Under the pieces are notes generated by a model, which was given only the letters and a program-made list of their open reading frames with translations, did no database searches and was not told where the DNA came from. Shown here piece after piece: positions 40,739 to 56,133 of a DNA stretch of 64,000 bases. How positions within the stretch are numbered: position 1 is the stretch's first letter; each line of letters begins with the position of its first letter. This DNA comes from Alphaproteobacteria bacterium (GTDB lineage Bacteria; Pseudomonadota; Alphaproteobacteria; Caulobacterales; Aquidulcibacteraceae). The position numbers and the translations under genes are program-made. The DNA lies in NCBI GenBank assembly GCA_016124255.1, contig WGOB01000063.1, positions 1-64,000 of the forward strand, in the 5' to 3' direction.

Positions 40739-41350
40739 TTAGCCAGTTTTGTTCGCGGCGGGCGGGACGAGCGCGGCGCGGACATAGCCGGCGGCGCTGA
40801 TGAGCGCGAGCGCGACCGCAGCCCAGAGCGCGGCCACGGCCGCCCAGGAGACCACCGCGCGGGCGCCGGGCTCGGCGAAGGACAAAGCCGGGAGAAAGAG
40901 GAACCCGGCGACCGCGATCATCTCGGCGCCGGCCTTGAGCTTGCCCACAGACGAGACCGGGAGCGTCCGTCCGGACCCGGACAATCCCTCCCGCAGCCCT
41001 GCGACCGCGACGTCGCGCACCACCAGCAGCACCGCCGCCAGGACCAGGTCCCAGCGCAACAAGGCGTAGGCCAGCGCGATGAGAGTTCCCGCCACGAGGG
41101 CCTTATCGGCGGCATGGTCAAGGGCGGCGCCGAGCGGGGTCACGGCGTCAAAGCGGCGGGCGATCCAGCCGTCGAGAAAGTCGGTGGCGGCGGCGGCGAC
41201 GAACAGGACACCCGCGATCGCGTAAATCAAGGCTGCGCGCCCCGCGCCGTCGGTGAAGACGATCGCGTGCGCCCAGAGAACAAGTCCCGCCACGATGGGC
41301 GCCGCAATGATGCGGAACAGCGTGAGATAGAGCGGCAGGCGTTGAAGCAT
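40739..41350 (-). CDS. pgsA: CDP-diacylglycerol--glycerol-3-phosphate phosphatidyltransferase
   Basis: Makes phosphatidylglycerophosphate, the first step to phosphatidylglycerol and cardiolipin. The 203-residue membrane protein has the CDP-alcohol phosphotransferase signature D-x2-DG-x2-AR-x8-G-x3-D-x3-D in TDFLDGWIARRF followed by DAVTPLGAALDHAADK. About five helices. It lies 16 bp after uvrC, and a uvrC-pgsA pairing is widespread in proteobacteria. Confidence 0.95.
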   Translation of the reverse strand: MLQRLPLYLTLFRIIAAPIVAGLVLWAHAIVFTDGAGRAALIYAIAGVLFVAAAATDFLDGWIARRFDAVTPLGAALDHAADKALVAGTLIALAYALLRWDLVLAAVLLVVRDVAVAGLREGLSGSGRTLPVSSVGKLKAGAEMIAVAGFLFLPALSFAEPGARAVVSWAAVAALWAAVALALISAAGYVRAALVPPAANKTG

Positions 41351-41366: not shown

Positions 41367-43388
41367 TCAGCCGCCGTCGCGGAAGAAGCCGTAGATGCGG
41401 CGGGCGAGAGAATCGTTGACGCCCTCGACTTCGAGCAGCTCGGCGAGATTGGCGCGGGCGACGCCGCGCGCGGAGCCGAAGCGGGCGAGCAGCGCGCGCT
41501 TGCGGGCGGGGCCGACGCCGCCGATGTCGTCGAGCGGATTCTTCGTCATGTCGGCCTTGCGCTTCTGGCGGTGGGCGCCGATGGCGTAGCGGTGCGCCTC
41601 GTCCCGCAGGCGCTGAAGGTAATACAGAACAGGGCTGCGCTCTTCGAGCCGGAACGGCGCGCGGCCGCGAATGAAGAAGCGCTCGCGGCCGGCGTCGCGC
41701 TCAACGCCCTTGGCGACGCCAACGAGAAGGATGCGGCCCGCAAGGCCCGCCTCGCGCAGCGCATCGTGGGCGGCCGCGAGCTGGCCCTCGCCGCCGTCGA
41801 TCAGGACGAGATCGGGCCAACGGCCGAACTTCTGATCGGGCTCTTCGTCCTTGGCTTTGGAGAAATCGACGCCGCCATCAGCGACGCGGCCGGCGCGATC
41901 GTCCTGATACGGATCATCTTCTCCTCCCCCTTGTGGGGAGGGGGTAGGCGGCGCCAGGCGCGCGAAGCGGCGGCGCAGCACTTCGCGCATCATCGCGTAA
42001 TCATCCCCCGGAGTGAGGTCGGCGCTCTTGATGTTGAACTTGCGGTACTGGTTTTTCTCGAAGCCGTCGGGACCGGCGACGATCATGGCGCCGACGGCGT
42101 TGGTTCCCTGGATGTGGGAGTTGTCATAGACCTCGATGCGTTCCGGCGGCGCCGGAAGATCGAAGGTTTCGGCCACGCCGGCCATCAGGCGGGCGACGCT
42201 CTGGGTGTCGGCGAGGCGGCGGGCCAGCGCTTCGCGGGCGTTCATCGCCGCCTGTTCGACGATGTCTTTCTTCTCACCGCGTTCAGGCGTGCGGATCTCG
42301 ATCCTGCGCTCCGCTCTGGTCGTCAGCGCGGCCTCAAGCAGGTCGCGCTCCTTGATCGGATGGCTTGCGAGCACGAGACGAGGCGGCTCCTGGCCGTCAT
42401 AGAATTGGCCGATGAAGCTTTCGAGGATCTCAGCCGGCTCCAGTTCCTTTTCGTGGCGGGGGAAATAGGCGCGGTTGCCCCAGTTCTGGCCGGCGCGGAA
42501 AAAGAACACCTGGATGCAGGAATAGCCGCCTTCCATCGCGAGGGCGAAGACGTCGGCCTCGTCGAAGGTTGCGGGATTGACGCCCTGCTGCGCGCGCACG
42601 GCGGCGAGCGCGCGGATGCGGTTGCGCAGGCGTGCGGCGTTCTCAAACTCGAGCGCATCGGCGGCCGCATGCATGTCGCGTGCGAGGCGTTCCTGCAGCT
42701 CGACGGATTTGCCGGTGAGGAAGTCGAGCGCGTCGTCAGTCAGCCCGCGGTATTCGGTTTCGTTCACCAGGCCGACGCAGGGCGCGCTGCAGCGCTTGAT
42801 CTGGTGAAGCATGCAGGGACGCGTGCGCGCCGAGAACACGCTGTCGGAACAGGAGCGGAGCAGGAACGCCTTCTGCAGCGTGTTCAGCGTGCGATTGACT
42901 GCGCCGGCGGAGGCGAAGGGGCCGAAATAGCGGCCTTTAGCGCGCTTGGCGCCGCGGTGCTTCTCCAGCGCGGGCGCCTGGTGATCCATCCGTATCAGGA
43001 TGAACGGGAAGCTCTTGTCGTCGCGCATGATCACGTTGAATCGCGGCTTCAGCCGCTTGATCATGTTGACTTCGAGGAGCAGCGCCTCGGTCTCGGTGGC
43101 GGTGACGATCACTTCGACGGCGGCGGTCTGGGTGATCATGCGGTAGATCTGGTTGGCGTGGGCGCGGCCCTGCGCATATTGCGAAACGCGCGCCCTCAGA
43201 TTGCGGGCCTTGCCGACGTAAAGCACTGCGCCGTCGGCGGCGAGCATGCGATAGACGCCCGGTTTTTGCGGCAGGAGGCGGCAGGCGTCCCTGATCGCAT
43301 CGACGCCGCGGAGCGGGCGCGCGGCCGCTTCGGCGTCGGCGGGGAGCGCGGCGAGATCGGGCGTGGCGGGCTTATCGGCCTTGGTCAT
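41367..43388 (-). CDS. uvrC: Excinuclease ABC subunit C
   Basis: Makes both incisions in nucleotide excision repair. The 673-residue protein has a GIY-YIG domain (GVYRMLAADGAVLYVGKARN), the Cys-rich patch CMLHQIKRCSAPC, a UVR motif, the RNase H-like C-terminal nuclease (RIEVYDNSHIQGTNAVGAMI; VLIDGGEGQL) and tandem HhH motifs at the end (IGGVGPARKRALLARFGSAR). A variable insert between the nuclease segments contains a PTPSPQGGGEDDPYQD stretch encoded by a palindrome. ATG at 43388 chosen; GTG at 43400 is an alternative. Confidence 0.96.
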   Translation of the reverse strand: MTKADKPATPDLAALPADAEAAARPLRGVDAIRDACRLLPQKPGVYRMLAADGAVLYVGKARNLRARVSQYAQGRAHANQIYRMITQTAAVEVIVTATETEALLLEVNMIKRLKPRFNVIMRDDKSFPFILIRMDHQAPALEKHRGAKRAKGRYFGPFASAGAVNRTLNTLQKAFLLRSCSDSVFSARTRPCMLHQIKRCSAPCVGLVNETEYRGLTDDALDFLTGKSVELQERLARDMHAAADALEFENAARLRNRIRALAAVRAQQGVNPATFDEADVFALAMEGGYSCIQVFFFRAGQNWGNRAYFPRHEKELEPAEILESFIGQFYDGQEPPRLVLASHPIKERDLLEAALTTRAERRIEIRTPERGEKKDIVEQAAMNAREALARRLADTQSVARLMAGVAETFDLPAPPERIEVYDNSHIQGTNAVGAMIVAGPDGFEKNQYRKFNIKSADLTPGDDYAMMREVLRRRFARLAPPTPSPQGGGEDDPYQDDRAGRVADGGVDFSKAKDEEPDQKFGRWPDLVLIDGGEGQLAAAHDALREAGLAGRILLVGVAKGVERDAGRERFFIRGRAPFRLEERSPVLYYLQRLRDEAHRYAIGAHRQKRKADMTKNPLDDIGGVGPARKRALLARFGSARGVARANLAELLEVEGVNDSLARRIYGFFRDGG
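41921..41945. repeat. Small palindrome (family C) inside the uvrC frame
   Basis: CTCCCC/GGGGAG hairpin with loop CTTGT, of the kind usually found between genes in this class, here translated in frame as PSPQGGG within uvrC. A related sequence encodes PSPRGGG at the start of uvrB, and an intergenic relative lies at 56060-56085. Confidence 0.5.
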
Positions 43389-43538
43389 GAATGCGGACAC
43401 AAGATAGAGGCGGTTCGCCGCGGACCCAAACCGCGGCGACGGCTCGCTTGATCGGCCTGCGGTCTCAGTCTAGCGAAGACGGGGGTATGAGGAACAGCGC
43501 CAAGCGCCCGGCGGCAGCGCCGGTTGGGGAGATCAGCC

Positions 43539-44447
43539 ATGCGGGGTCGGTTTACAATCGCGGCGCGGTCGGGCGCGCTTCTCAGCGGGCTGGCGCTCGC
43601 GGCGCTGGCGGGGCCGGCCTGGTCGCAGCCGCAGGACGATGACGCGATCGCGACGGTGCGCTCTTATCTCGACGACGGGGCGGCGACGCATACCGATCAG
43701 GGGCACCGGGCGCTCAACCGCGAGATGATCCGCACGATCGACGCCGACGGCTCGATGCTGTGGCCGGTGCAGGTGCGGTCCGGCCGGACCTACGTGTTCT
43801 ACGCCGCGTGCGACAATTTCTGCTCCGACGTCGACATGGAAGTCTATGACGTCGACGGGCGGCGCGCGGAGGTGGACATCCTGCCGGACGATACGCCGTT
43901 CGTGCAGCTGTCGCCGGCGCAATCCGGGCGCGCCTATGTGCGGGTCTGGCTGGCGAGCTGCGACGTCGCGCAGTGCACGGTCGGCGCTCGCGGCATGTAT
44001 GGCGGGCGGTTTGTGGACCGGAGGAGCGCGCCGATGCTCGAAGTGGCGCCCACGGCGACGGATTGGCCGGAGGTGACGCTGGCGCTGCTGAACGAATATG
44101 GCCAGCGGCATCTCGATGCGCGGTTCACCGCGCTTGCAAGCGAGGGCGATGAGATCGCGCCGTTCCGTACCGAGAGCGAAGGGATGACGCGCAGCTTTGC
44201 GCTGGCGAGCGGGCGGACCTATCGGTTCCAGGCGGCGTGCGACCAGGATTGCAACGACGTCGATATCGAGATCCTGAGTGCGGACGGCGCGCAGGTCGCG
44301 CTCAACGAGGATTTCGACAACAACCCGTTCGTCGAGTTCACGCCGGAGGCGGACGGGCCGTTCACTGTGCGCGTCTATCTTCCGCAGGCGACCGCCTGCA
44401 CGATCGAGCCCTGCTATATCGGGCTGCGCGGCTACGAGCAGCGCTGA
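43539..44447 (+). CDS. Secreted protein with two homologous Cys-containing PPC-like domains
   Basis: A 302-residue exported protein (signal peptide ending near AGPAWSQ). The mature part is an internal duplication. Copy 1 (from about residue 81) has GRTYVFYAACDNFCSDVDME, DDTPFVQLSP and a C-x4-C pair before GARGMY. Copy 2 (from about 224) has GRTYRFQAACDQDCNDVDIE, DNNPFVEFTP and a matching C-x4-C before GLRGYEQR. The strand pattern resembles bacterial pre-peptidase C-terminal domains. No enzyme domain is attached. Start set by GGGGAG upstream of the ATG. Confidence 0.8.
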   Translation: MRGRFTIAARSGALLSGLALAALAGPAWSQPQDDDAIATVRSYLDDGAATHTDQGHRALNREMIRTIDADGSMLWPVQVRSGRTYVFYAACDNFCSDVDMEVYDVDGRRAEVDILPDDTPFVQLSPAQSGRAYVRVWLASCDVAQCTVGARGMYGGRFVDRRSAPMLEVAPTATDWPEVTLALLNEYGQRHLDARFTALASEGDEIAPFRTESEGMTRSFALASGRTYRFQAACDQDCNDVDIEILSADGAQVALNEDFDNNPFVEFTPEADGPFTVRVYLPQATACTIEPCYIGLRGYEQR

Positions 44448-44463
44448 GATTCCAAGCAAACGG

Positions 44464-44507
44464 AAAAAAAGGGACGTCGGTCTCGCGACCGGCGCCCCTT
44501 TGATTTT
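44464..44507. terminator. Bidirectional intrinsic terminator
   Basis: Seven A residues, a 12-bp stem with two mismatches (GGGACGTCGGTC / GACCGGCGCCCC, loop TCGC), then TTTGATTTT. It lies between convergent stops at 44447 and 44526, so it can end both the secreted-protein transcript and the cold-shock transcript. Confidence 0.8.
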
Positions 44508-44525
44508 GTCCGCTGACGCGCGCCG

Positions 44526-45167
44526 CTATTCGACGAGCTTCAGGTTCACCGCCTTCGGCCCCTTGCCCTTGGTGTCGGGCAGGGTCTGGAAGTTGACGCG
44601 CTGGCCTTCCACGAGCGGGGGAAGCCCCGCGCGTTCGACCGCGCTCACATGCACGAAGACATCCGCGCCGCCACCGTCCGGCGTGATGAAGCCGAAGCCG
44701 CGCGCGGCGTTGAAGAACTTCACGGTGCCGTCCTGCGGATCGCCGAGGGGCGCGCGCGGGGGACGGTCGCCAAAGTCGCCGCCGCCGCCGCCGCCGCGGT
44801 ATCCGCCGCCGCCGCCGCCGCGATAGCCGCCGCCGCCGCCGCCGCCGCGGTATCCGCCGCCGCCGCCGCGGTATCCGCCGCCGCCGCCGCCGCGGTATCC
44901 GCCGCCGCCGCCGCCGCGATACCCGCCGCCGCCGCGATCGCCGAAGCCGCCGCCCCGGTCACCGTAGCCGCCGCCGCGATCGCCATAGCCGCCGCCGCGA
45001 TCGGAGAAACCCCCGCCGCCGCCGCCAAAGCCGCCGCCGCCGCCAGCGCCGCCGCCGCCGAAATCCGCGGGCTCCTCTGAGGGCCGGTCACGGCCGCGGC
45101 CTCTGCGCTCTTTCTTTTTTCCGCCGCCGTCGCCGTCGTCGTCGTCGAATTCGTAATCGTCGCTCAT
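44526..45167 (-). CDS. Cold-shock domain protein with N-terminal RGG-rich region
   Basis: A 213-residue RNA-binding protein of unusual layout. Residues 1-35 are acidic then Lys/Arg-rich; residues 37-133 are about three-quarters glycine with ten RGG motifs (four D-R-G-G-G, six Y-R-G-G-G) plus aromatic F/Y spacers. Residues 147-213 form one cold-shock domain with RNP1 RGFGFI (156-161) and RNP2 VFVHVS (170-175). Classical bacterial Csp proteins are 65-75 residues. The Gly-rich tract resembles eukaryotic RGG/FGG disordered regions. A 218-bp spacer upstream may hold a long leader. Confidence 0.93.
   Translation of the reverse strand: MSDDYEFDDDDGDGGGKKKERRGRGRDRPSEEPADFGGGGAGGGGGFGGGGGGFSDRGGGYGDRGGGYGDRGGGFGDRGGGGYRGGGGGGYRGGGGGGYRGGGGGYRGGGGGGGYRGGGGGGYRGGGGGGDFGDRPPRAPLGDPQDGTVKFFNAARGFGFITPDGGGADVFVHVSAVERAGLPPLVEGQRVNFQTLPDTKGKGPKAVNLKLVE
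44770..45060. repeat. Low-complexity GCC/GCG tandem tract inside the cold-shock gene
   Basis: Imperfect direct repeats of CCGCCGCCGCCGCGGTATCC type, encoding the YRGGGGGG units. Unit length varies by one or two codons, so the array probably changes length by slippage. It is coding sequence, not a CRISPR or VNTR outside a gene. Confidence 0.85.
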
Positions 45168-45385
45168 TCCAAACTGTCCTTAACCACCGGGCGTGCGCAC
45201 GCACGCCGACACGCACCATCGGTTGGCGCGATCGACGTCAAGCTTTGCGGATTGTGGGAGAGATTGTTTCTGCCGCACTCTGCGGAACGCCGTACTCTGT
45301 CGGGCCCTTCGCCTGACTTACCTGCGTCGCTTTAGCGCGAGGGACGGAGGCGGGCAAGACCAATCCCTCTATGCCGCACGGAAAA

Positions 45386-46021
45386 TCAGGCCGACGCCGT
45401 CGGCGCGCGCATCCGCTTTTCGCGCTGCGCGACGAGGTAGGAGACGATCACGGCGCCCACAAGCTTGGAGGCGATGCCGGTCAGGATCGTCCCCCAGGCG
45501 AACATGCCCGGCACGACCAGGGAGGCGAGATAGATGAAGACCACCTGGTCGATCGGCGCGGAGAGGGCGCTGGAGAGGAGAATGCGCTGCGACAGCGGCC
45601 GGTTGGAGAAGGTGTAGACGGCCCAATCCGTGGTCTCGCTGATCAGGAAGGCGACGCCGCTGGCGACCACGATCACCACCCAGGAGGTGAGCGTGGAGAG
45701 CAGGAGCCCGACCAGCATCGCGGCCAGGACCCAGTTCTTGATTTCACGCTGGGCGAAATCGCGCACGACCAGGACAAGGCCGGTGACGACCGCAAACGGA
45801 TGAAAGCTGCCGCCGCCGAGTTCGGGGGGGATCGGCGTCGTCGGGATGCCGGCGAAGGCCCAATTGATGAGCGGCATCAGCGCCACATAGATCGCCGTCG
45901 CGGGCAGGCGCGCGACCAGGAAGGCGAGCACGACCGCGGCGCAGATGACGGCCGACAGCGGCAGCACGCCTGCGACTTCGGTCGCCTGCACCCATTCGAT
46001 AAAGCGCGCGATCTGATCCAT
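45386..46021 (-). CDS. VUT family / queuosine-precursor transporter-like membrane protein
   Basis: A 211-residue polytopic protein with about six helices. Segments ASGVAFLISETTDWAVYTFS and LSSALSAPIDQVVFIYLASL match the YhhQ/VUT family, proposed to import queuine precursors (preQ0/preQ1). Its presence fits with gluQ at 26897, which acts on queuosine tRNA. ATG at 46021 chosen; TTG two codons earlier is possible. Preceded by a 218-bp spacer with no other gene. Confidence 0.85.
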   Translation of the reverse strand: MDQIARFIEWVQATEVAGVLPLSAVICAAVVLAFLVARLPATAIYVALMPLINWAFAGIPTTPIPPELGGGSFHPFAVVTGLVLVVRDFAQREIKNWVLAAMLVGLLLSTLTSWVVIVVASGVAFLISETTDWAVYTFSNRPLSQRILLSSALSAPIDQVVFIYLASLVVPGMFAWGTILTGIASKLVGAVIVSYLVAQREKRMRAPTASA

Positions 46022-46076
46022 GCTCAACTCGTCTTACGGCGATGCTGGCGGAAAGGCGCTGGCGCGTCCAGCACGG

Positions 46077-46913
46077 CTAGGCCCCGACCGGGGCTGCGGC
46101 GAGGGCGGCGCCTGCGCCTTGCGCAAGGCGCGCGGGCAAGGCGGGCGAGCAGGCGAGGACCGCGTCACGCAAGGTGTGGGGCGGGTTGATCGCAAGGACG
46201 CTGGAGGCGCGCAACGGGCCGGCGCGTTCGGGGGCGGCGACGGCCAGGTCGATGCGCAGGTTCTCCGCGCGCGAGAGCGCCAGCGTTTCGGCATCGGCGC
46301 GGGCGAGGGCGGCGGCGTCCTTCAGCGGCCGCCACCAGAGGATTTGCGCCTGCGGCGCGCGGCGCAGGAGGGCGCGCACGGCGCCGGCGGCGCGCTCCAG
46401 TTCGTCCGGGGCTTCGTAGGGCGGGTCGATCAGCACCAGGCCGCGCTTTTCGGGGAAGGGAAAGAGTGCGCCAAGCGCTTCCCACGCGTCGCGCTCGTGG
46501 ATTTGGGCGTTGCGCGCGCCGCGGAAGCAACGCCGCAGCGCGGCGGCGTCTTCAGGGCGCCGCTCCACGGCGATGAGACGATCGTCTGCGCGCAGCGCAT
46601 CGGCGATCAGCAGCGGGGAGCCGGGATAGAGCTGCAAAGCAGCGCCGGGATTGTGTGCGCGGACGGCGCCGATCAAGGCGGCGACGAGGGGCGGGGCCTC
46701 GGCCCAATCCCAGAGCCGCGCGGCGCCGTCTTTCCATTCCGGGCTGCGCGCGGCGGCGTCGCCGGCGAGATCGTAGAGGCCGGCGCCGGCGTGCGCGTCA
46801 AGCACAGCGAAGGGCGCGGGCTTGCGGCGCAGGTGCGCCAGCCAGTGGAGGAGCACGGCGTGCTTCAGCACATCAGCGTGGTTTGCCGCGTGGAACGCGT
46901 GGCGATAATTCAT
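46077..46913 (-). CDS. rlmJ: 23S rRNA (adenine2030-N6)-methyltransferase RlmJ
   Basis: SAM-dependent N6-adenine methyltransferase acting on 23S rRNA. The 278-residue protein has the family N-terminus MNYRHAFHAANHADVLKHAV, SAM loop VLDAHAGAGLYDL and the catalytic motif LVLIDPPYEAPDELERA. It is divergent from the VOC gene with only 21 bp between starts, so the two promoters must overlap. Confidence 0.94.
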   Translation of the reverse strand: MNYRHAFHAANHADVLKHAVLLHWLAHLRRKPAPFAVLDAHAGAGLYDLAGDAAARSPEWKDGAARLWDWAEAPPLVAALIGAVRAHNPGAALQLYPGSPLLIADALRADDRLIAVERRPEDAAALRRCFRGARNAQIHERDAWEALGALFPFPEKRGLVLIDPPYEAPDELERAAGAVRALLRRAPQAQILWWRPLKDAAALARADAETLALSRAENLRIDLAVAAPERAGPLRASSVLAINPPHTLRDAVLACSPALPARLAQGAGAALAAAPVGA

Positions 46914-46934
46914 AGTCGGAGAAGGAGAGACGAC

Positions 46935-47329: not shown

Positions 47330-47905
47330 TCAGGCGGCGCTGGTTTCCGGCGTCTCGGGCAGCGCGTCGGAATCTTCCTGCGCGCGGCGGCGCGGACGCG
47401 AAACGCGCGGACGCAGGCGATGGACGCTTGCGGCTTCGCGCTCTTCCTCGGTGGGACGCTCAGCTGCGCCGACGGCGATGCGCAGAAAGGCGCGCAACTG
47501 CAGCGCGTCGAGCGGCCACGGCGCCCAGACCTCGTCACGCGAGACGCGGCGCCAGGCGGCTTGCAGCACCTGCGGATCGGAGCATTGGGCAAGGCCCCAT
47601 TGCGGATAGGAATACGAGGCGATCTCGGTCATCTCGACGAGCACCACGTTGCGGTGGCGGCGATCGCGGCTGATCGCCTGGAACAGGAGCGACACCGGCG
47701 TGCGCGGGCCTTCCAGAATCTGAATGAAACACGTGCGATCGGCGATCAGCAGGCCGGTGATGCAGCGCTCCTGATTGCGGAGCGCGGACCGGGCCACGAG
47801 CCGACGCAGCGCTTCATCGCCGCAGCGGGCTTCTCGTTCGCTGAAATAGACCAATCTGTTGAGCACAGGTTTACGCTCGGCCGCCCTATCTGAAGGGGCC
47901 ATCAT
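47330..47905 (-). CDS. BLUF-domain blue-light sensor
   Basis: A 191-residue flavin photoreceptor. Tyr20 (LNRLVYFS), Asn44 (LRNQERCITGLL) and Gln62 (CFIQILEGPR) keep the exact spacing of AppA Tyr21, Asn45 and Gln63. Trp103 in YPQWGLAQC matches AppA Trp104, but the switch methionine is Leu105. After about residue 145 there is an Arg/Glu/Pro tail and no EAL, GGDEF or other effector, so it must act by protein contact. ATG at 47905 or 47902. Confidence 0.9.
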   Translation of the reverse strand: MMAPSDRAAERKPVLNRLVYFSEREARCGDEALRRLVARSALRNQERCITGLLIADRTCFIQILEGPRTPVSLLFQAISRDRRHRNVVLVEMTEIASYSYPQWGLAQCSDPQVLQAAWRRVSRDEVWAPWPLDALQLRAFLRIAVGAAERPTEEEREAASVHRLRPRVSRPRRRAQEDSDALPETPETSAA

Positions 47906-55711: not shown

Positions 55712-56133
55712 ACGTTTGCGGTCGCGCTGCTGGTTTTTGTTGCGCGCCGGCGCCGTGACGGGGACCCGATCGTGGCGGCGCGCGATGGCCGTCGCCGGCC
55801 GGCGCGCTGAGCCGGGAATCGCCCCGTGATCTGATGTTTGGAGCGCGCGGGCGCTGTGACGGAGGCCCCGTCGTAGAGGCGCGCTGAACGCCGTCGCCGG
55901 CCGGCGCGCTGAGCCGGGAATCGCCCCGTGATCTGATGTTTGGAGCGCGCGGGCGCTGTGACGGAGGTCCCGTCGTAGCGGCGCGCTGAACGCTGTCGCC
56001 GGCCTGCGCGCTTAGGCGGGAATCGCCCCGTGATCCATGGGGGTACGTTGCTGCGCCGTCCCTCTCCGCGCGGGGAGGGAGAGGGCGGGGCCGGGCTGAT
56101 TGCGCCGCCTCGCGGGGGCGCATAGGATTCGGC
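55712..56133. repeat. Tandem array of three family A repeats plus a small palindrome
   Basis: This 422-bp spacer has no gene. Three head-to-tail units start at 55742, 55843 and 55945 (period 101-102 bp), each with an inverted pair (GCGCGCC/GGCGCGC or AGCGCGC/GCGCGCT), GTGACGG, GTCGCCGGCC and the right end GGGAATCGCCCCGTGATC. Units 2 and 3 are nearly identical. A family C palindrome (CCCTCTCC / GGGGAGGG) lies at 56060-56085. Confidence 0.9.

Follow-up and report, generated by a model that had tools for sequence, protein, structure and literature searches.

Proteins of the CspA family of cold-shock proteins typically comprise about 70 amino acids. The window, that is, the whole 64,000-nucleotide stretch of contig WGOB01000063.1 (assembly GCA_016124255.1, Aquidulcibacteraceae) analysed here, contains a gene for a 213-aa protein in which a cold-shock domain is preceded by 144 mostly disordered residues. 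This raises the question whether the extension is a genuine part of the protein, which of its properties are conserved and what it may contribute. The first-pass annotation had proposed a single cold-shock domain (CSD) behind an acidic N-terminus and a Gly-rich region with ten RGG motifs, and all three elements were recovered. Pfam PF00313 matches residues 146-210 with 70.4 bits (cut-off 27), placing the protein in this family; there is one CSD per protein, and no second Pfam domain scores above its cut-off. The CSD contains RGFGFI and VFVHV, which we take to be RNP1-like and RNP2-like motifs, respectively. Its best solved relatives are the bacterial cold-shock proteins 3i2z, 3cam, 2l15 and 1mjc, the last two being CspA entries, while Y-box proteins rank later. 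Ten csp models of the NCBIfam CspA/C/D/E/F/G/H subfamilies matched, all under their cut-offs (best 73.1 vs 120).

The arm proper (residues 36-134, 99 aa) consists of 69% Gly with 13 aromatics and ten RGG motifs, which start at residues 57, 64, 71, 78, 84, 92, 100, 107, 116 and 124. Tri-RGG regions are defined by closely spaced RGG motifs with gaps of 0-4 residues, together with aromatics; the first five motifs of the arm are spaced in this way, with gaps of 4, 4, 4 and 3 residues. The N-terminus carries eight Asp/Glu in residues 1-15 and eight Lys/Arg in residues 16-33, and the 213-aa translation contains no Cys. In an AlphaFold2 model built on an input alignment of only seven sequences, residues 1-131 nearly all have a pLDDT below 50 and lack secondary structure, while the blocks of the CSD reach 84-94. 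A search of the arm against its own genome up to E 10 returned only the arm itself, and the RGGG codon pattern has 668/661 matches in this genome vs 741/731 for the control. The features of the locus are compiled in Table 1.

Table 1. Features of the armed cold-shock gene and its surroundings (positions in the window).
Feature	Position	Strand	Basis or remark
pgsA, downstream of uvrC	40739-41350	-	Synteny in relatives
uvrC, downstream syntenic neighbour	41367-43400	-	NCBIfam search, relatives
RGG-arm cold-shock protein CDS	44526-45167	-	ATG start, 213 aa
CSD, CspA type, residues 146-211	44535-44732	-	Pfam PF00313; pLDDT blocks 84-94
Disordered Gly-rich arm, residues 36-134, ten RGG	44766-45062	-	AlphaFold2, composition
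24-bp tandem array, YRGGGGGG-like units, 6.5 copies	44779-44935	n/a	Repeat coding part of the arm
N-terminal module, residues 1-33 (acidic in 1-15, basic in 17-28)	45069-45167	-	Common to both repeat types
Start codon and purine-rich stretch AAGGACAGTTTGGAATG	45165-45181	-	Putative ribosome site
Structured 5' leader RNA	45182-45320	-	Conserved, pairing tests; R1 match 45225-45320
Leader hairpin P4	45190-45207	-	
Leader hairpin P3	45208-45233	-	
Leader hairpin P2	45271-45287	-	
Leader hairpin P1	45299-45317	-	
Promoter-like pair CTTGC + CTAAAG	45325-45358	-	Conserved in relatives; putative promoter
Vut_1-like transporter gene	45386-46027	-	Pfam PF02592, 29.8 bits vs 27.2
rlmJ, 23S rRNA methyltransferase gene	46077-46922	-	Pfam PF04378, 192.3 bits; syntenic in relatives

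The open frame alone is no evidence for the arm, since two further frames, both Ala-rich, are also open over the GC-rich repeat (44649-45080 on the plus strand and 44720-45091 on the minus strand). In relatives this part of the protein is built from either of two repeats, YRGGGGGG (RGG type) or FGDRPPRR (DRPPR type), and the N-terminal module, the arm and the CSD lie in one frame in 31 distinct full-length family proteins (20 RGG type, 11 DRPPR type), selected by start motif and open frame. In unguided nucleotide alignments of disjoint pairs, gaps within the arm were multiples of three in 47 of 48 cases over both types. For the RGG type (10 pairs from the 20 proteins) this held for 32/32 gaps, and differences at codon positions 1/2/3 numbered 194/175/392; for the DRPPR type (5 pairs, using 10 of the 11 proteins) it held for 15/16 gaps, with 57/51/259 differences. 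The single exception is a DRPPR gap of 10 nt accompanied by 19 out-of-frame columns. Protein-guided alignments likewise gave gaps in threes and an excess of third-position differences. These two signatures rule out a misread frame or an antisense Ala-rich ORF and indicate that the frame is real; judged by this pattern of sequence change, the arm is genuinely translated and selectively maintained. An out-of-frame Gly-rich part in relatives, the outcome that would have spoken against the first-pass annotation, was found in a single case: the G161 gene contains internal stops, leaves its frame and looks broken or misassembled.

The gene was found in 55 of 60 family genomes (40 RGG type, several of them partial at contig ends, and 15 DRPPR type; G035 and G145 were assigned from the match table alone), so that a lone oddity is ruled out and the orthologues called for by the earlier reading do exist. 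It was not found in the other five family genomes (G004, G007, G014, G141 and G158), among which G007 is 99% complete. The relatives at L033-L037 are metagenome-assembled genomes (MAGs) labelled Alphaproteobacteria, Proteobacteria or Hyphomonadaceae. The length variation predicted from the DNA repeats was borne out between species, the level at which it was compared: the 20 RGG-type proteins have 109-195 residues before the CSD and 2-13 RGG motifs.

Assemblies repeatedly break in the Gly-rich repeat, so that the half with the leader and the half with the CSD end up on separate contigs. A contig end truncates the CSD frame on its 5' side in 13 of the 49 family loci (L007, L008, L012, L014-L018, L037, L188, L195, L196 and L198), or in 9 under a stricter filter; the 49 loci include at least three duplicates (L033, L186 and L197). 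From the other side, 14 of 18 leader regions lead into an N-terminal module before the contig ends (L233, L235-L244, L246, L247 and L249), in 12 cases inside the arm, in L246 inside the CSD and in L238 in altered sequence. Two further leader regions leave the frame (L234 and L250), and two weak model matches (L245 and L248) are without an N-terminal module. In G016 the 5' half of the gene was located at a contig end by means of the leader model. Proteins with such Gly-rich arms are thus probably under-counted.

What is held constant across the two repeat types is not the RGG motif. All 31 full-length proteins have at least six Asp/Glu in residues 1-15 and at least three Lys/Arg in residues 16-33, and in the arms of both types aromatics make up 0.075-0.118 of the residues and the net charge lies between +0.02 and +0.06 per residue. 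Over the same 31 arms Gly varies from 0.11 to 0.71, Arg from 0.07 to 0.24 and Pro from 0.03 to 0.21. Mean Gly is 0.67 in the RGG type vs 0.25 in the DRPPR type, mean Arg 0.09 vs 0.20 and mean Pro 0.04 vs 0.17, whereas mean aromatics (0.100 vs 0.110) and mean net charge (+0.036 vs +0.043 per residue) barely differ, a comparison that amounts to one evolutionary contrast. The DRPPR-type proteins keep only 0-2 RGG each, which rules out RGG as the conserved feature. The likeness to glycine-rich RNA-binding proteins drawn in the first-pass annotation stands for composition, but RGG is only one of two repeat types in the slot. Since composition is held while the repeats differ, we regard composition as the constant trait, although its constancy is partly due to shared ancestry within each repeat type.

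In a tree of the CSDs (112 of 212 CSD rows, 69 columns, support mark 95/80), the 38 armed family rows cluster together (100/92), with separate subgroups for the RGG type (28 rows, 100/92) and the DRPPR type (10 rows, 100/96). The tree left out plain two-CSD rows and the plain rows of L113-L183 except L155, and the 212-row set is without most of the Mesorhizobium-type loci of L040-L066, identical CSDs and L045. Where rows within this group are named 'plain', they represent copies truncated by contig ends or the stop-containing L194, and L024 is of the DRPPR type, though marked RGG in the tree. An RGG-type family member with a long branch, L018 of G005, is placed apart from the armed group.

The genomic slot points to the origin of the armed gene. 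In the window csp sits between rlmJ and the pair uvrC-pgsA. For the DRPPR type, rlmJ is the next upstream gene in 11 of 12 loci (L019, L021-L027 and L029-L032), and RGG-type loci with a long enough flank have rlmJ upstream, usually with the Vut_1-like gene between. A plain csp with rlmJ upstream occurs in Methylocapsa (L043), Methylopila (L048), a Hyphomicrobiales MAG (L056) and a Proteobacteria MAG (L038); in L056 rlmJ, csp, uvrC and pgsA follow each other in the order of the window, with a plain csp of 71 aa. In the tree, six plain rows, five of them linked to rlmJ, stand beside the armed family (93/86, under the 95/80 mark, on 69 columns). The shared slot and the tree grouping suggest, on comparative grounds, that the arm probably arose on an ordinary CspA gene early in the history of the family.

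Other features of the window were noted as well. The plus-strand frame at 43524-44447 encodes a 307-aa protein without a Pfam or NCBIfam match, the two halves of which look alike by eye, and homologues of it occur near csp in L005/L033, L014 and L035. A BLUF blue-light sensor protein is encoded near the locus at 47330-47905 (minus strand), and at 55742-56035 a 102-bp unit is repeated in tandem (2.9 copies, 91% match).

Arms are also found on cold-shock proteins elsewhere in the class. RGG arms of a different make are present in Prosthecomicrobium hirschii (L039), where csp lies beside rlmJ but on the opposite side, and in a Hyphomicrobiaceae MAG (L045), and four Sphingomonadales loci have Gly/RGG arms ahead of two CSDs. 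A class survey with one genome per family covered 39 frames of about 159 residues or longer among the matches listed; with L148, which yielded no CSD frame, set aside, these gave 38 long CSD proteins in 30 genomes. In 12 of these proteins, belonging to 10 genomes, Gly reaches at least 40% over a stretch of 25 residues outside the CSD, located in the linker between CSDs in ten, at the N-terminus in one and at the C-terminus in one. The survey thus indicates that Gly-rich extension of CSD proteins is recurrent in Alphaproteobacteria. Two-CSD proteins with Gly/RGG-rich linkers were seen in L116, L129, L135, L139 and others from other families of the class, and in L119 the CSD is followed by a long acidic repeat tail rich in Glu and Pro.

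Upstream of 20 RGG-type genes, a stretch of about 160 nt is conserved from the promoter-like element to the start codon; the second promoter-like element reads CATAAG in most relatives. Hairpin P2 (TCCGCNNNGTGCGGC) hardly varies and might just as well be a DNA operator, while in P1, P3 and P4 the sequence varies and the pairing is kept. Because P1 was not aligned by MAFFT, pairing was assessed with an arm-swap test, in which the 3' halves were redealt among 20 related sequences, so that kinship stays in the result. For each of P1, P3 and P4, 0/2000 permutations were as stable as the native set, with mean energies (own/swapped) of -11.75/-9.01, -19.17/-15.15 and -14.38/-9.91, respectively; loop centres were taken from the native fold, and L005 is mis-centred in P1. 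RNAalifold on the MAFFT alignments recovered P2 and parts of P3/P4 only (13 pairs, 4 with two-sided changes), and on a shorter alignment it gave 5 pairs without any two-sided change. Shuffle z-scores were modest (means of 20: whole leader -1.24, P1 -1.88, P2 -0.96, P3-P4 -1.79).

A model of the 5' part of the leader, R1, was searched with filters that lose weak matches and matched 37 of 60 family genomes, once in 36 of them and twice in G151. It matched 36 of the 40 RGG-type genomes, missing G005, G022, G145 and G155. The 37th genome, G009 (E 0.0093), is of the DRPPR type and its match is not followed by the gene; R1 gave no match in the other 14 DRPPR genomes. Over 150 genomes of the order R1 matched 18, of which 17 belong to the family, and in the remaining one, G054 (E 0.002), the gene does not follow the match. 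As R1 holds only five P2 pairs, its matches are mainly sequence matches. The exact P2 pattern occurs once in the genome of the window, at the csp leader, while the pattern relaxed to one mismatch was at chance level (21/18 vs 38/27 for the control). A leader known to Rfam is ruled out, as no family reached its gathering score: in 43000-46500 there were two matches up to E 1, far below that score and off the leader. By analogy with other csp mRNAs, the leader hairpins are a likely place of expression control, and the leader RNA provides a specific element that can be searched for.

The arm, then, is real, conserved, translated and recurrent. As to its function, we slightly favor a CspA-family protein that binds single-stranded RNA (and ssDNA) and carries an N-terminal disordered, multivalent RNA-contacting arm. 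The CSD would melt or hold single-stranded RNA, as CspA does, and the arm would use its Arg and its aromatics, which occur roughly once every 8-13 residues, for many weak contacts to RNA and to other arms. Such contacts could raise the avidity for RNA and gather the protein in RNA-rich assemblies, the acidic tip may tune them, and the leader hairpins may control expression, possibly through the protein itself. Condensation in the cell, suggested by analogy, is possible and the weakest step of this scheme. The more far-reaching version is rather unlikely: an RGG-type RNA-granule protein that arose independently in bacteria from a plain CspA gene, its arm selected for aromatic spacing and slight positive charge instead of for sequence and swappable between Gly-RGG and DRPPR, driving RNA-rich condensates in the cold, and its expression passing through a leader that the protein's own CSD may remodel.

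A serious though less probable alternative is that the arm only raises RNA affinity or solubility, as a flexible multivalent tether on a monomeric RNA chaperone that forms no condensate. The slight positive charge and the low Arg density of the RGG type (0.07-0.11) fit this reading, as does the discussion of RGG motifs as affinity enhancers in the available part of PMC3281114, but by itself it leaves the constant aromatic density of both repeat types unexplained. A nearly neutral arm, produced incidentally as CGG-type repeats slip in a GC-rich genome, is improbable. The 24-bp array, the large length changes between species, the other open frames and the stops in the G161 gene would all be expected from slippage, whereas gaps in threes and the third-position excess argue against it, and position, charge and aromatics are retained in the DRPPR type despite its different repeat. 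CSDs bind ssDNA as well as RNA, and uvrC is a neighbour in several relatives, so a protein acting mainly on single-stranded DNA or the nucleoid instead of as an RNA chaperone was also considered; since CspA-type proteins act mainly on RNA and the rRNA enzyme gene rlmJ is the more widely shared neighbour, we give it slightly less credence still. That methylation of its arginines regulates the arm, as happens with RGG proteins of eukaryotes, would suit the ten RGG motifs but is very improbable given the 0-2 RGG of the DRPPR type. A search for PRMT_C methyltransferases was equally silent in the genomes searched (0/21) and in the control genomes (0/14).

The proteins encoded in this one genomic slot are either armless or carry a Gly-RGG or a DRPPR arm, which makes them a compact natural experiment on whether selection on low-complexity arms acts on composition rather than on sequence. 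If the arm drives condensation, the protein would be an independent bacterial counterpart of the RGG proteins of eukaryotic RNA granules.

Among known systems, the CspA family (PF00313) shares the CSD, and a plain csp occupies the same rlmJ-uvrC slot; the protein of the window differs in its 144 mostly disordered residues ahead of this domain. The cold-induced cyanobacterial Rbp proteins also join a bacterial RNA-binding domain to Gly-rich sequence, but the domain is an RRM and the Gly tail is C-terminal. Among the matches listed in the open-access literature, none is a study of an RGG-armed CSD protein from bacteria. Sphingomonadales proteins from Zymomonas, Sphingobium, Novosphingobium and Sandarakinorhabdus have a similar N-terminal Gly/RGG arm, but they contain two CSDs and fall outside the armed family in the tree, and the two kinds of arm are probably separate gains. 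The scallop protein CfCSP, an invertebrate RGG-type CSD protein, likewise combines a CSD with RGG repeats; according to the accessible part of its description, these are C-terminal, present in four copies and not closely spaced, and its CSD is of the eukaryotic Y-box-like kind (PMC3281114). The same text suggests that, where a protein has a further RNA-binding domain, RGG motifs boost its affinity for RNA.

The closest plant counterpart is AtGRP2, which, as far as the available portion of PMC11602973 describes it, also has one CSD and Gly-rich sequence with spaced Arg and Tyr. There the CSD comes first and the Gly-rich part follows, so the reversed order noted in the first-pass annotation was correct, and the Gly-rich part holds two CCHC zinc knuckles, whereas the protein of the window has none. 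It accordingly lacks the AtGRP2-type architecture of an N-terminal CSD followed by a C-terminal Gly-rich region with CCHC motifs. In the accessible part of PMC13261584, AtGRP2 is described as a CSD protein with an Arg/Tyr/Gly-rich tail whose in vitro droplets need its arginines and also a zinc finger and are dissolved by RNA, while deletion of the Gly-rich domain had little effect on them. On this description, Gly/RGG content is not a simple predictor of condensation.
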